From Mumia sp. ZJ1417 (GTDB taxonomy: Bacteria > Actinomycetota > Actinomycetes > Propionibacteriales > Nocardioidaceae), in NCBI RefSeq assembly GCF_014127285.1, contig NZ_CP059901.1:3286001-3350000 (forward strand): 64,000 bases of DNA, read 5' to 3'. Made by a program: the position numbers and the translations under genes. Below the pieces are notes generated by a model that did not search any database, was not told where the DNA came from, and saw only the letters and a program-made list of their open reading frames with translations. Shown in pieces: positions 31,156 through 55,343 of the stretch; positions within the stretch are counted from its first letter, which is position 1; the number at the start of each line of letters is the position of its first letter.

Positions 31156-32247
31156 ATGGGAATCGTCCGCAAGGCACTCGCCTCGCGACCGGTCGCCGCC
31201 TTCACCTCCCCCCACACGGTCGACCACTACCTCGACCAGGTGCACCCCATGCTGGCCGTCCACCACGTGCGCGCTCGCGTCGTCGAGGTGATCCGCGAGA
31301 CCGGTGTCGCGAGCACGGTCGTGCTGCGGCCCAATGGCACGTGGCGGGGTTTCAAGCCCGGGCAGCACGTCGAGTTCGGCGTGGAGGTCGACGGCAAGCG
31401 CCGCGTCCGGGTGTTCTCGGTGTCGAGCTCGACACAGCGCAAGGACGGCCTCTTCAGCGTCTCCGTTAAGGCGCACCCCGACGGCTACGTCTCCCAGTAC
31501 CTCCACCACGAGCTCTGCCCGCGCACGCTCGTCCACCTCTCGCAGGCCGACGGCGACTTCGTCCTCCCCGACAGCGTCCCCGACGACCTGCTGCTCCTGT
31601 CCGGCGGCAGCGGCATCACGCCGGTGATGTCGATGCTGCGCACCCTGCGCGACACCGGCCATCGCGGCCGGGTCACGTTCTTGCACTACGCCCGCAGCCG
31701 GGACGACGAGATGTTCTCCGACGAGCTCGACGAGCTCGACACCTCGCTCGACTTCGCGACGGTCGTCCGCATCTACACCCGCGAGCCCGTCGAGGGCGCC
31801 GAGCTCGCCGGCCGCTTCACCGTCGAGCACCTCAAGCACCTCGGCGTCGACGCCGCGAGCACGCTGTCGTACGTCTGCGGCCCGGCCGGCCTCATCGCCA
31901 CGGTTCGCGACGCGTACGACGAGCTGGACGCCGCCGACCAGCTGCGGATGGAGTACTTCAAGGTCCCCACCGTCGACCTCGCCGCCGCCGACGCCACCGG
32001 CACCCTCACCTTCGAGGACTCCGGCATCGCCGCCGACAACTCCGGCACGACCATCCTCGAGCAGGCGGAAGCCGCGGGACTGAAACCCGCGTACGGCTGC
32101 CGCATGGGCGTCTGCAACACCTGCGCCCTCAAGAAGAACCACGGCGCCGTACGCCACGTCATCAGCGGCGAGATCACGGCCAGCACCGACGAGACCATCA
32201 AGATCTGCGTCCAAGTCCCTGTCGGCGACGTCAACGTCGCCCTCTGA
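31156..32247 (+). CDS. Flavodoxin-type ferredoxin reductase with 2Fe-2S domain (desaturase partner)
   Basis: A 363-aa electron-transfer protein. The FAD domain has RVFSVSSS, the NAD domain GGSGITPVMSML and SYVCGPAGL, and a C-terminal plant-type 2Fe-2S domain has Cys315, Cys320, Cys323 and Cys351 (CRMGVCNTC). It matches the mycobacterial Rv3230c, redox partner of DesA3. The ATG follows GGAG; the long open frame upstream is not coding. The desaturase gene follows 53 bp later. Confidence 0.93.
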   Translation: MGIVRKALASRPVAAFTSPHTVDHYLDQVHPMLAVHHVRARVVEVIRETGVASTVVLRPNGTWRGFKPGQHVEFGVEVDGKRRVRVFSVSSSTQRKDGLFSVSVKAHPDGYVSQYLHHELCPRTLVHLSQADGDFVLPDSVPDDLLLLSGGSGITPVMSMLRTLRDTGHRGRVTFLHYARSRDDEMFSDELDELDTSLDFATVVRIYTREPVEGAELAGRFTVEHLKHLGVDAASTLSYVCGPAGLIATVRDAYDELDAADQLRMEYFKVPTVDLAAADATGTLTFEDSGIAADNSGTTILEQAEAAGLKPAYGCRMGVCNTCALKKNHGAVRHVISGEITASTDETIKICVQVPVGDVNVAL

Positions 32248-32254
32248 TTTCGAC

Positions 32255-32277
32255 CCTTCGACAGGCTCAGGACGAAC
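32255..32277 (+). repeat. Single REP-like element (TTCGACAGGCTCA core)
   Basis: The sequence CCTTCGACAGGCTCAGGACG followed by AAC sits between the reductase and desaturase genes and shares the core TTCGACAGGCTCA with the arrays at 52.6 and 53.1 kb. Confidence 0.6.
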
Positions 32278-32300
32278 AAGCTCAATCACCGGAGGAGAGC

Positions 32301-37110: not shown

Positions 37111-37190
37111 GTCGAGCCGCCCCGCCGCCGGTCGAGCCGCCCCGCCGCCGGTCGAGCCGCCCCGCCGCCGGTCGAGCCTGTCGAGACCCC
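37111..37190. repeat. 20-bp tandem repeat ending in a REP-like arm
   Basis: GTCGAGCCGCCCCGCCGCCG is repeated three times (37111-37170), followed by GTCGAGCCTGTCGAGACCCC, a variant of the TGAGCCTGTCGAAACC element found at 52.6 kb. It fills the space between the response-regulator stop and the M4 protease start. Confidence 0.8.
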
Positions 37191-51039: not shown

Positions 51040-52605
<1,566 letters not shown>

Positions 52606-52658
52606 TCCTCGATCCTACCGAGAGCCGCGCACCGCCCGTCCGGCCGCGCCCGCAAGCC

Positions 52659-52805
52659 GCTGGTTGAGCCTGTCGAAACCCACGAGCCCGCTGGTTGAGC
52701 CTGTCGAAACCCACGAGCCCGCTGGTTGAGCCTGTCGAAACCCACGAGCCTGCTGGTTGAGCCTGTCGAAACCCACGAGCCCGCTGGTTGAGCCTGTCGA
52801 AACCC
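52659..52805 (+). repeat. Array A: five REP-like units, GGTTGAGCCTGTCGAAACC core
   Basis: Four full 31-bp units and a fifth partial one are near-identical, each with GGTTGAGCCTGTCGAAACC followed by CACGAGCC. The array runs from upstream of guaA to the stop codon of the GIY-YIG gene. It is in opposite orientation to array B. Confidence 0.95.
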
Positions 52806-52807
52806 GC

Positions 52808-53092
52808 TCACTCGTCCTGCCGATTACGCGAGAGCTGTGGCAGAGCCGCGAAATCGCCGCGGATCAGAGCCTCCCGCTTCGCACGTGACCAGCCCTGGAC
52901 GCGCTTCTCCCAGGCAAAGGCCTCGTCGACTCGTTCGAACTCCATGGCATACACAAGTTCTACTGGCCGGCGGCGCCTGGTGTGTGCCGCACCGTCGCCG
53001 TCTTGGTGCTGCTTCAGACGCCGTTCGAGGTCGCGGGCGCTACCGACGTAGTAGCTCCCGTCGGCGCATTTGAGGATGTAGGTCCACGCCAT
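52808..53092 (-). CDS. GIY-YIG nuclease family protein
   Basis: A 94-aa single-domain GIY-YIG protein of the YhbQ/UPF0213 type. WTYILKCADGSYYVGSARDL is the GIY-YIG core, then the catalytic-region Arg in ERRLKQHQDG, and FAWEKRVQGWSRAKREALI with the Glu that normally binds metal. It is flanked on both sides by arrays of the same repeat in opposite orientation. The ATG at 53092 fits the family start; the frame continues upstream only through repeats. No clear ribosome site is seen. Confidence 0.88.
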   Translation of the reverse strand: MAWTYILKCADGSYYVGSARDLERRLKQHQDGDGAAHTRRRRPVELVYAMEFERVDEAFAWEKRVQGWSRAKREALIRGDFAALPQLSRNRQDE

Positions 53093-53140
53093 CTGTAAAG
53101 GATGTCGGTGATCGCCGAGGCGAGGACGCGGCTGTCCACA

Positions 53141-53635
53141 GGTTTCGACAGGCTCAACCAACGGGCGGCGCGGTTTCGACAAGCTCAACCAACGGGCGGC
53201 ACGCGGTTTCGACAGGCTCAACCGGCGGGCGGCGGCGCGGTTTCGACAGGCTCAACCGGCGGGCGGCGGCGCGGTTTCGACAAGCTCAACCAACGGGCGG
53301 CGCGGTTTCGACAAGCTCAACCAACGGGCGGCGCGGTTTCGACAAGCTCAACCGGCGGGCGGCACGCGGTTTCGACAAGCTCAACCGGCGGGCGGCGGCG
53401 CGGTTTCGACAAGCTCAACCGGCGGGCGGCGGCGCGGTTTCGACAAGCTCAACCAACGGGCGGCACGCGGTTTCGACAAGCTCAACCAACGGGCGGCACG
53501 CGGTTTCGACAAGCTCAACCAACGGGCGGCACGCGGTTTCGACAGGCTCAACCAACGGGCGGCGGCGCGGTTTCGACAGGCTCAACCGGCGGGCGACGGC
53601 ACGCGGTTTCGACAGGCTCAACCGGCGGGCGCGGG
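53141..53635 (-). repeat. Array B: fifteen REP-like units, GGTTTCGACARGCTCAACC core
   Basis: Fifteen copies of GGTTTCGACARGCTCAACC occur every 30-35 bp, separated by short linkers such as AACGGGCGGCGC or GGCGGGCGGCACGC. The unit is the reverse complement of array A's core, with A or G at one place. It fills the 544 bp between the GIY-YIG and GMC oxidoreductase genes and ends 2 bases before the stop codon of the latter. There are no unique spacers. Confidence 0.95.
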
Positions 53636-53636
53636 G

Positions 53637-55343
53637 TCAGCTGATGCCGACGATGGGCAGGCGCAGCGCGGCGGGCGCGTCGTCAGGCACGACTGGGTTC
53701 TTCGGCGCCACGGCGTCCATCCGCGCATATCCGGCACCGACCGCGGGCCTGGTGTCGGTCTCGCCGCGGTTCGGCCACAACGCCATGGCCCGCTCCGCCT
53801 GGGCGGTGATCGTCAGCGAAGGGTTGACCCCGAGGTTCGCCGAGATCGCGGCGCCGTCGACGACGTGCAGGCCGTCGTACCCGTAGAGACGGTGGTACGG
53901 GTCGATGACGCCGGTCTCGGCGGAGTCGCCGATCGCGCAGCCGCCGATGAAGTGCGCGGTCAGCGGGATGTTGAACGGCTCGCCGAGCGTGCCGCCGGCC
54001 GTCCCGTCGATCTTCTCGGCGGTGCGGCGCACGGCCTCGTTGGCCTTGGGGATCCACGACGGGTTCGGCTCGCCCTGCCCCTGCTTGGAGGTGAGTCGAA
54101 GCCGCCCGGTGAACGGGTTCTTCTTCGTGTACGTGGTGATCGAGTTGTCCACCGACTGCATGACCAGCATGATGATCACCCGCTCCGACCAGTGCTTGAA
54201 GTCGTACAGCCCGCGCACGTTGCGCTTCTGCACCCACAGCTCCTTGAGCCACGTCTGCCACCGCGGGCGCGGACCGTCGCCGTCGGTGAGCACGGTCTGG
54301 AGCATCGCCATCGCGTTGGAGCCCTTGCCGTAGCGGACCGGCTCGATGTGCGTGACCTCGTCGGGATGGAACGACGAGGTGATCGCGACGCCCTCGGAGA
54401 AGTCGACGTCGCGGTTGCCGGCGATCGCGCCGAGGAGCGACTCGGAGTTGGTGCGGGTGAGCACGCCGAGGCGGTCAGAGATCCGTGGGAGCACGCCCTC
54501 GGAGCGCATCCGGTGCAAGAGCTTCTGGGTGCCGAGCGAACCTGCGGCAAAGACGACCTGGTCGGCCGTGAAGCGCCGCGCGACCTTGCGTCGACGGTCC
54601 GTACGACGAGTGTCGACGGCGTATCCTCCACCACCGCGCGGCGTTACCTGCGTCACCGTCGTGAGCGCGTGGATGCGCGCACCAGCCTGCTCAGCGAGGT
54701 AGAGGTAGTTCTTGACGAGCGTGTTCTTGGCGTTGTGACGGCACCCCGTCATGCACTCGCCGCAGTGCGTGCAGCCTGCACGTGAGGGACCCACGCCACC
54801 GAAGTACGGGTCGTCCGCCGTCTCCCCAGGACCGCCAAAAAACACGCCGACCGGCGTCGCGTGGAACGTGTCTCCGACACCCATGTCCTCTGCGACCTCG
54901 CGCATCACCTCGTCCGCCGGCGTCATCCCCGGGTACGTGGTGACGCCCAGCATCCGCTTGGCCTGGTCGTAGTACGGAGCGAGCTCGGCCTTCCAGTCGG
55001 TGATGTGACCCCACGCGTTGTCGCGGTAGAACGGGTCGAACGGCTCGTACAGCGTGTTGGCGTACACGAGGGAGCCACCGCCGACACCCGCCCCGGACAT
55101 GATCATCACGTCCTTGAGGAGGTTGATCCGCTGGATCCCGTAGCACCCGACCTCGGGCGCGAACAGATAGCGCTTGAGGTCCCACGAGCTCGCCGCGAAG
55201 TCCTCGTCGCGGAACCGCGCCCCTGCCTCGAGGACCCCGACGCGGTAGCCCTTCTCGGTGAGTCGCAGGGCCGTGACACTCCCGCCGAAGCCGGATCCGA
55301 TCACGAGGACGTCGTAGTGCTGGGGGGCCGCATCGTGGTTCAC
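53637..55343 (-). CDS. GMC-type FAD oxidoreductase, cholesterol-oxidase-like (ChoD-like)
   Basis: A 568-aa flavoprotein. It opens with the FAD motif VLVIGSGFGGSVTALRL and has GAGVGGGSLVYAN and the C-terminal GMC signature HVVDGAAISANLGVNPSLT. A cluster CTHCGECMTGCRHNAKNTL is typical of the Rv3409c (ChoD) subgroup. Mycobacterial choD lies beside guaB3; here guaB3 is 7 kb away. True cholesterol oxidase activity is not certain for this subgroup. Confidence 0.88.
   Translation of the reverse strand: MNHDAAPQHYDVLVIGSGFGGSVTALRLTEKGYRVGVLEAGARFRDEDFAASSWDLKRYLFAPEVGCYGIQRINLLKDVMIMSGAGVGGGSLVYANTLYEPFDPFYRDNAWGHITDWKAELAPYYDQAKRMLGVTTYPGMTPADEVMREVAEDMGVGDTFHATPVGVFFGGPGETADDPYFGGVGPSRAGCTHCGECMTGCRHNAKNTLVKNYLYLAEQAGARIHALTTVTQVTPRGGGGYAVDTRRTDRRRKVARRFTADQVVFAAGSLGTQKLLHRMRSEGVLPRISDRLGVLTRTNSESLLGAIAGNRDVDFSEGVAITSSFHPDEVTHIEPVRYGKGSNAMAMLQTVLTDGDGPRPRWQTWLKELWVQKRNVRGLYDFKHWSERVIIMLVMQSVDNSITTYTKKNPFTGRLRLTSKQGQGEPNPSWIPKANEAVRRTAEKIDGTAGGTLGEPFNIPLTAHFIGGCAIGDSAETGVIDPYHRLYGYDGLHVVDGAAISANLGVNPSLTITAQAERAMALWPNRGETDTRPAVGAGYARMDAVAPKNPVVPDDAPAALRLPIVGIS

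Follow-up and report, generated by a model that had tools for sequence, protein, structure and literature searches.

The DNA stretch studied here, which we refer to as the window, comprises 64,000 nucleotides of Mumia sp. ZJ1417 (contig NZ_CP059901.1, positions 3,286,001 to 3,350,000) and includes a small gene for a predicted GIY-YIG nuclease that is bracketed by two arrays of a short palindromic element. The gene (UPF0213, 94 amino acids) occupies positions 52808..53092 on the minus strand and was assigned from a Pfam match and from its motif residues. Five elements GGTTGAGCCTGTCGAAACC, with a period of 31, are located at 52662..52804 (plus strand) and face the 3′ end of the gene, and fifteen elements GGTTGAGCYTGTCGAAACC at 53141..53623 (minus strand) face its 5′ end. 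The initial annotation had described this arrangement of five plus-strand units and fifteen reverse-complement units around the gene, and exact cores are indeed present in both intervals. It had also placed the arrays 2 and 48 bases from the coding sequence; the 48 bases between the start codon and the right array are correct, and the left array ends 3 bases (52805-52807) from the stop codon. When up to 3 mismatches were allowed, 21 core matches were obtained in the window vs. none in 100 dinucleotide shuffles of it. The genome to which the window belongs (4.19 Mb, one contig) carries 77 exact cores, 20 of them in the two arrays, and no match to the reversed pattern used as a control. A search of the same genome with the window protein matched a single place.

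The window protein consists of a stand-alone GIY-YIG domain (Pfam PF01541, 4.2e-19). The sole other Pfam match, T5orf172, is weaker, and the same search found no HuH/Y1 tyrosine transposase domain. The motif residues Y15, G17, R25, H29 and E62, which presumably have catalytic roles, are invariant in alignments of 24 and of 47 sequences. The solved relatives identified are two UPF0213 proteins (PDB 1zg2 and 1ywl). No match was found in PHROGs; PADLOC returned one weak homing-endonuclease match, and NCBIfam one match to a group I intron endonuclease, under its cut-off. By its stand-alone domain and motif residues the protein belongs with UPF0213, and its sequence predicts nuclease activity.

Relatives of the gene were collected in a survey of 98 genomes, 22 of which (that of the window included) carry a GIY-YIG gene, at 30 loci. 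The exact core of the window element occurs in 14 of the 98 genomes (again including its own), with at most 4 copies in 10 of these 14. The initial annotation had proposed to look for co-occurrence of gene and core across genomes; with the exact core this largely fails because the element is genome-specific: every genome carries its own, and the exact core is a misleading test. Among the flanks listed for the 30 loci, facing palindromes were seen at most genes and differed from genome to genome. Their common form is an arm followed by GAG, a centre, TCGA and the complementary arm (arm-GAG-N(4-40)-TCGA-arm′), with the tag CGNT on the 5′ side. One version of it, GGTYGAG..TCGARACC, was counted at 21 loci (the window plus 20 regions, each of 20 kb, picked from the matches). 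Its density was 11.4/kb within 150 bp of the gene, 5.2/kb at 150-300 bp, 1.9/kb at 300-600 bp and about 0.1/kb past 1.2 kb. Within 1.2 kb, elements were present on both sides of the gene in 19 of the 21 loci and in facing orientation in 18.

A larger sample was assembled from a scan of species genomes (the best 80 of at least 527 loci, from several actinobacterial families and Chloroflexota), two genome surveys and three plasmid loci, the Alphaproteobacteria being represented by plasmid records. Its 137 loci were reduced to 125 unique ones, 120 of which had enough flanking sequence. Facing elements with complementary arms were found on both sides of the gene in 101 of these 120 loci (upstream in 108, downstream in 105), and six decoy anchor pairs scored on the same loci gave no two-sided hit and no more than 5 one-sided ones. 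The adjacency of gene and repeats noticed in the window therefore holds when the general form of the element is used. A fresh set was also analyzed (103 loci from a survey of 245 family genomes, minus duplicates and minus proteins at least 95% identical to the first set), and elements were present on both sides in 58 of 77 loci.

A tandem duplication of gene and element is suggested at one place (L042/L054, G018:C1:1392015-1392729), where the starts of two GIY-YIG copies are separated by 445 bp, elements lie in the interval, and the 255 nt compared are the same in both copies. Some GIY-YIG genes (L049 in G043, L142, and places in G411, G491 and G503) have an in-frame stop in the part that matched, as would be expected if a mobile gene were decaying.

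The arms of the elements are of several types (GGTT/AACC, GGTC/GACC, GATC, CCTT/AAGG, CCCT/AGGG, CGTC, GGCT, TGTC and others), and their complementarity is kept. Of 962 near-gene GAG..TCGA sites, 267 have four complementary arm pairs vs. a shuffled mean of 71.5 (maximum 96), and 94 of 5149 sites far from genes have fully complementary arms. At the junction, the bases that follow GAG and precede TCGA form a pair in 175 of 189 near-gene sites that have full arms and a centre of 6 nt or more (T-A 68, G-C 57, C-G 50); when arms were not required, such junction pairing was found in 48% of near sites and in 32% of those far from genes. The centre measures 4-40 nt among 203 distinct elements, composite ones excluded. 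For the 184 elements with a centre of at least 12 nt, inner stems have a mean length of 3.73 vs. 2.60 when shuffled, and 92 of them reach 4 pairs; folding beats 95% of shuffles in 56 (mean z -1.15). Hairpin stability of seven isolated elements ranged from z +0.37 to -2.56, the 19-mers doing no better than their shuffles. The tag that precedes the palindrome was read in 213 elements (C in 162, G in 209, any base at the third position, T in 182), and the 3′ flank of the same elements holds little information. The window elements, read by eye, have the tags CGCT, TGCT, CGTT or CGCC, an arm of 4 bp and the junction GAG/TCGA.

At 99 of 101 loci (shuffled mean 35, maximum 53), the two elements of one gene agree in the base that precedes TCGA, and at 85 of the 101 they agree in the arm. 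By far the most informative protein position on this base is the C-terminal column of window Asn90, the codon of which lies at 52823..52825 (minus strand); the base is G in the window. Where full C-termini were available, Lys goes with A (37/39), Arg with C (27/28) and any other residue with G (43/45), that is, 107 of 112 loci in total. Applied to the fresh loci, the same rule accounted for 50 of 65 (shuffled mean 23.3, maximum 36 in 2000), 14 loci without an element being left unscored and two rows with a gap in the column being counted as "other"; it accounted for 39 of the 54 fresh loci that are less than 80% identical to the first set. Near-neighbour pairs were also compared, which were disjoint, at least 70% identical outside the tail and different in residue class, branch support being ignored. 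Both members were as predicted in 41 of 54 pairs, and no base change was seen in 8.

Gene and element also go together at the level of whole genomes. With thresholds that were set after the counts had been seen (at least 5 GGTT-type or at least 40 GGTC-type matches), element-rich genomes in a class survey of 246 make up 20 of the 26 with the gene vs. 4 of the 220 without it (Fisher 1.8e-20, kinship-uncorrected), the background being at least one GGTC-type match in 206 of the 246. In this general form, the co-occurrence put forward in the initial annotation is recovered. A more specific comparison was made with the 67 genomes that yielded one gene in the surveys. Here at least 10 copies of the Lys-type element (CGAGTA..GTATCGAG) are present in 17 of 21 Lys genomes vs. 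2 of 46 others (Fisher 2.6e-10; threshold-free rank test 8.5e-11; both kinship-uncorrected). The gene-less relatives G002, G005, G041, G051 and G056 carry at most 2 copies of it.

The insertion in the window lies between two genes that we take to be guaA (51040..52605, minus strand), on its left, and a GMC-type oxidoreductase gene (53637..55343, minus strand), on its right. A homologous GIY-YIG gene is found at the same GMC-guaA place in the sister species G004, in opposite orientation, with Lys for Asn and with a TA-type element, GGTCGAGTAG..GTATCGAGACC, in the place of the GGTTGAGCCTGTCGAAACC that accompanies the Asn90 protein. G004 carries 98 TA-type copies and 1 window core; the window genome carries 6 and 77, respectively. 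Compared with window 52600-53640, the gene in G004 (C7, near 385 kb) is inverted relative to guaA, possibly through recombination between facing elements. In G001, G002 and G003 guaA directly adjoins the GMC gene, with no GIY-YIG gene in between; the search pattern found no element in the gap of these three genomes, and an imperfect element with three of four arm pairs was seen by eye in G003. G005 has a different gene upstream of guaA. Among five congeners with the GMC-guaA order, the window's own included, the GIY-YIG gene is thus present in 2 and absent in 3. Identity of guaA to that of the window is 97% in G004, 95% in G001, 94% in G005, 93% in G002 and 91% in G003, and for that reason gain of the gene before the window's species and G004 diverged would be the simplest account. 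Presence and absence at a conserved site are observed here, from which alone gain and loss are not separable.

Similar differences are found away from the gene. In 400 kb shared with G004, the window genome has seven clusters of CYTG-type elements that are remote from the gene. At the aligned places, G004 lacks five of them, including that at window 37130..37188 (plus strand), an element GGTCGAGCCTGTCGAGACC with degenerate tandem copies; one faces a diverged stretch of equal length and one has no alignment. No target-site duplication is visible at the five empty sites, the flanks of which are diverged. At two of the five, G004 already has the letters of the element's 3′ arm, and at one the element adjoins four tandem copies of a 21-bp local unit. 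As to the two lone variant copies reported earlier in the window, that at 37170-37188 stands, with 2 mismatches, and that near 32255 proved to be an element CCTGAGCCTGTCGAAGG nested within another, GATTGAG...TCGAAATC, at 32246..32287 (minus strand); the two members of this nested pair differ in arm type. Thirteen clusters read at dispersed sites of the window genome include singlets, inverted doublets with a 2-bp gap and tandem arrays with site-specific spacers. Array length also changes: in one close-species pair, five upstream units (one of them degenerate) correspond to two. Empty sites, array changes and site-specific spacers favour a process of local, repair-like copying.

We consider it likely that the gene encodes the dedicated enzyme of a family of tagged palindromes, that is, a GIY-YIG nuclease associated with repetitive extragenic palindromic (REP) elements, like the REP-associated tyrosine transposase (RAYT) of REPtrons and not homologous to it. 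The pairing of gene and element, their facing orientation, their covariation, their co-occurrence in genomes, the presence or absence at corresponding sites and the changes in array length are direct observations, and nuclease and element are well supported as a coevolving pair. The protein would recognize the palindrome, probably in a folded state (hairpin or cruciform), given that arms and junction bases are kept across centres of 4 to 40 nt; residue 90, in the C-terminal tail, would read the base pair beside GAG/TCGA. A nick or cut at or near an element would start repair that leaves extra copies, either as tandem arrays at existing elements or as new singlets and doublets elsewhere, without target-site duplication. 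Gene and facing elements on both sides would form the autonomous unit, the dispersed elements being non-autonomous. Spread of the element through cleavage by the enzyme is the most likely process, binding, cleavage and homing-like copying being the steps that we infer. A change of the tail residue may be the cause of element turnover, a new element family then replacing the old one.

Several results weigh against this interpretation. Elements in reversed orientation are found on both sides in 35 of the 120 loci, a figure that is reached because arrays often contain inverted pairs. At least one side lacks a recognizable element in 19 of the 120 loci and in 19 of 77 fresh ones, and 14 of 79 fresh loci have none on either side. 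On its own, the 19-nt element has a weak fold (-0.3 kcal/mol) that does not surpass those of shuffled sequences. Among the 26 genomes with the gene, six have few matches to the two search patterns; one of the six, G061, has CCCT arms at its gene, outside both patterns. The four element-rich exceptions (G099, G186, G219 and G301) lack the small gene and carry only longer open reading frames with a GIY-YIG domain, so that elements persist in the absence of the gene. Perhaps they hold relics after gene loss or, in the drafts G099 and G301, the gene was missed at contig ends. The Lys-type element is abundant in two non-Lys genomes and scarce in four Lys genomes, and G001, with two genes, neither of them Lys, carries 43 copies. 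The residue rule is violated in 15 of the 65 fresh loci (Arg with G in 7, another residue or a gap with C in 7, Lys with G in 1); one-residue shifts in the uncorrected tail alignment may be one cause, and the simple rule of Lys, Arg and other is incomplete. An independent-pairs test restricted to supported branches gave only 2 pairs (20 on all branches), too few to decide, and was therefore replaced by the near-neighbour pairs. To our knowledge, GIY-YIG enzymes are nucleases, not strand-transferases, which makes the copying step conjectural.

Other roles of the protein have to be weighed against that of a dedicated nuclease. RAYTs are thought to excise and insert single-stranded hairpins, and the GIY-YIG protein might itself do so, with the facing elements as the ends of a transposase-like unit. 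The layout is that of a REPtron, with a gene between facing tagged palindromes and with dispersed singlets and inverted doublets, and insertions show no visible target duplication. However, Pfam finds no HuH or other transposase domain, only GIY-YIG and the weaker T5orf172, and arrays with site-specific spacers resemble local copying; we hold this explanation to be rather unlikely. It is likewise improbable, in our opinion, that a host-serving or domesticated nuclease resolves cruciforms or hairpins at the palindromes, the repeats arising otherwise and the enzyme only tracking them. Repeat-linked genes have a patchy distribution (22 of the 98 genomes, that of the window among them), one of them occupies a site that is gene-free in three congeners, some copies have in-frame stops, and every gene has its own element, not a shared one. 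Such a role would nevertheless agree with the ordinary, repeat-free neighbourhoods of some relatives, e.g., Bacillus yazA between trmNF and rsmI, and with membership of the family of Slx1, YhbQ and YazA, as given in PMC7017083.

The gene might also lie merely where repeats accumulate, for instance in a recombination-prone region, an explanation that the initial annotation had left room for. Array length does differ between close species. Near and facing elements at 101 of 120 loci with null decoys, the covariation of residue and base and the match between cognate gene and element at the genome level are nevertheless difficult to reconcile with a passive neighbourhood, which we regard as very unlikely.

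Other relatives were inspected as well. On plasmid records, two Methylobacterium relatives and one from Sphingomonas have repeats with the GAG/TCGA skeleton, as read by eye; no flanking repeats were seen at Bacillus yazA, at the Vibrio, Cupriavidus and Xanthomonas genes or at a second Sphingomonas gene (Sphingomonas paeninsulae). A separate GIY-YIG subfamily was first met on Novosphingobium pNL2. Of 33 matching records, 17 loci were chosen, close relatives included (two Sphingobium, three Shinella), the plasmid-record loci being L205, L328-L340 and L343. Palindromes with the tag CGTC, TGTC or CCTC lie on both sides of the gene in 12 of the 17 and downstream in 15, and with four decoy tag sets no locus scored on both sides and 2 at most on one side. 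The Planktothrix and Spirosoma loci showed no such repeats. One locus is from Neisseria gonorrhoeae, and its repeats fit the dRS3 pattern as it appears in PMC3898611. CGTC-tagged REPs, including Neisseria dRS3, are reported by Di Nocera et al. (2013; PMC3733652) to lack a dedicated transposase, and this GIY-YIG subfamily is now proposed as their enzyme. In Azospirillum lipoferum AZO_p3 (L329:2501-2794), the GIY-YIG gene and its repeats stand between sufB and sufC, splitting the suf row. A repeat-less relative on Planktothrix agardhii p1 (L341) is flanked by genes for an MmeI-type restriction enzyme and for a DISARM helicase.

GIY-YIG proteins could make up a second, independently evolved class of REP mobilizers, acting on a wide collection of palindromic repeats in Actinomycetota, Chloroflexota, Alphaproteobacteria and, with dRS3, Neisseria. 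It would act by hairpin-directed cleavage and repair and use a one-residue, one-base code from which single amino-acid changes produce new element families; our confidence in this wider proposal is evenly balanced. If it is true, the REP lifestyle has arisen at least twice, with unrelated enzymes. Among the PubMed Central (PMC) matches listed, drawn from a literature with no preprints and few subscription journals, no paper links GIY-YIG proteins with REP-type repeats, and the four motif strings looked for occur in no paper of the PMC literature searched. The residue-to-base rule predicts the pairing of enzyme and repeat, and provides a compact system for the study of target change in nucleases.

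Among known systems, UPF0213/COG2827 (YhbQ, YazA; PDB 1zg2, 1ywl) includes the sequence relatives of the window protein, with a single GIY-YIG domain of about 95 residues; unlike the window gene, the five examined (from Bacillus, Vibrio, Cupriavidus, Xanthomonas and Sphingomonas paeninsulae) are without such flanking repeats. In GIY-YIG homing endonucleases the nuclease gene is physically linked to its target site, as here, but no intron, intein or second DNA-binding domain is seen at our locus, and the target is a palindrome present in many copies, some of them distant from the gene. With CGTC-tagged REPs the window element shares a similar one-sided tag, and repeats at the second GIY-YIG subfamily, which flank the gene, have the CGTC tag and the palindromic stem. 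The window elements differ from that class (CGTC/TGTC/CCTC tag, 8-9 bp stem starting with AT, 4-5 nt loop, CCA tail) and have a conserved GAG/TCGA junction with arms that vary between genomes. The closest parallel is with the REPtron (RAYT/TnpA-REP). As described in PMC8266576 and PMC3733652, it likewise combines a small gene between facing, one-side-tagged palindromes with singlets, doublets and arrays, and its enzyme and element evolve together; the inverted copies that flank a REPtron gene have their counterpart at 101 of our 120 loci. The RAYT is an IS200/IS605-like HuH tyrosine transposase, whereas the enzyme here is a GIY-YIG nuclease in which Pfam found no HuH domain; the tag is GTAG there and CGNT or CGTC here, and long tandem arrays are a feature of the present system. 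By analogy, the unit of gene and element appears to work like a REPtron, but is not one, its enzyme coming from another superfamily.
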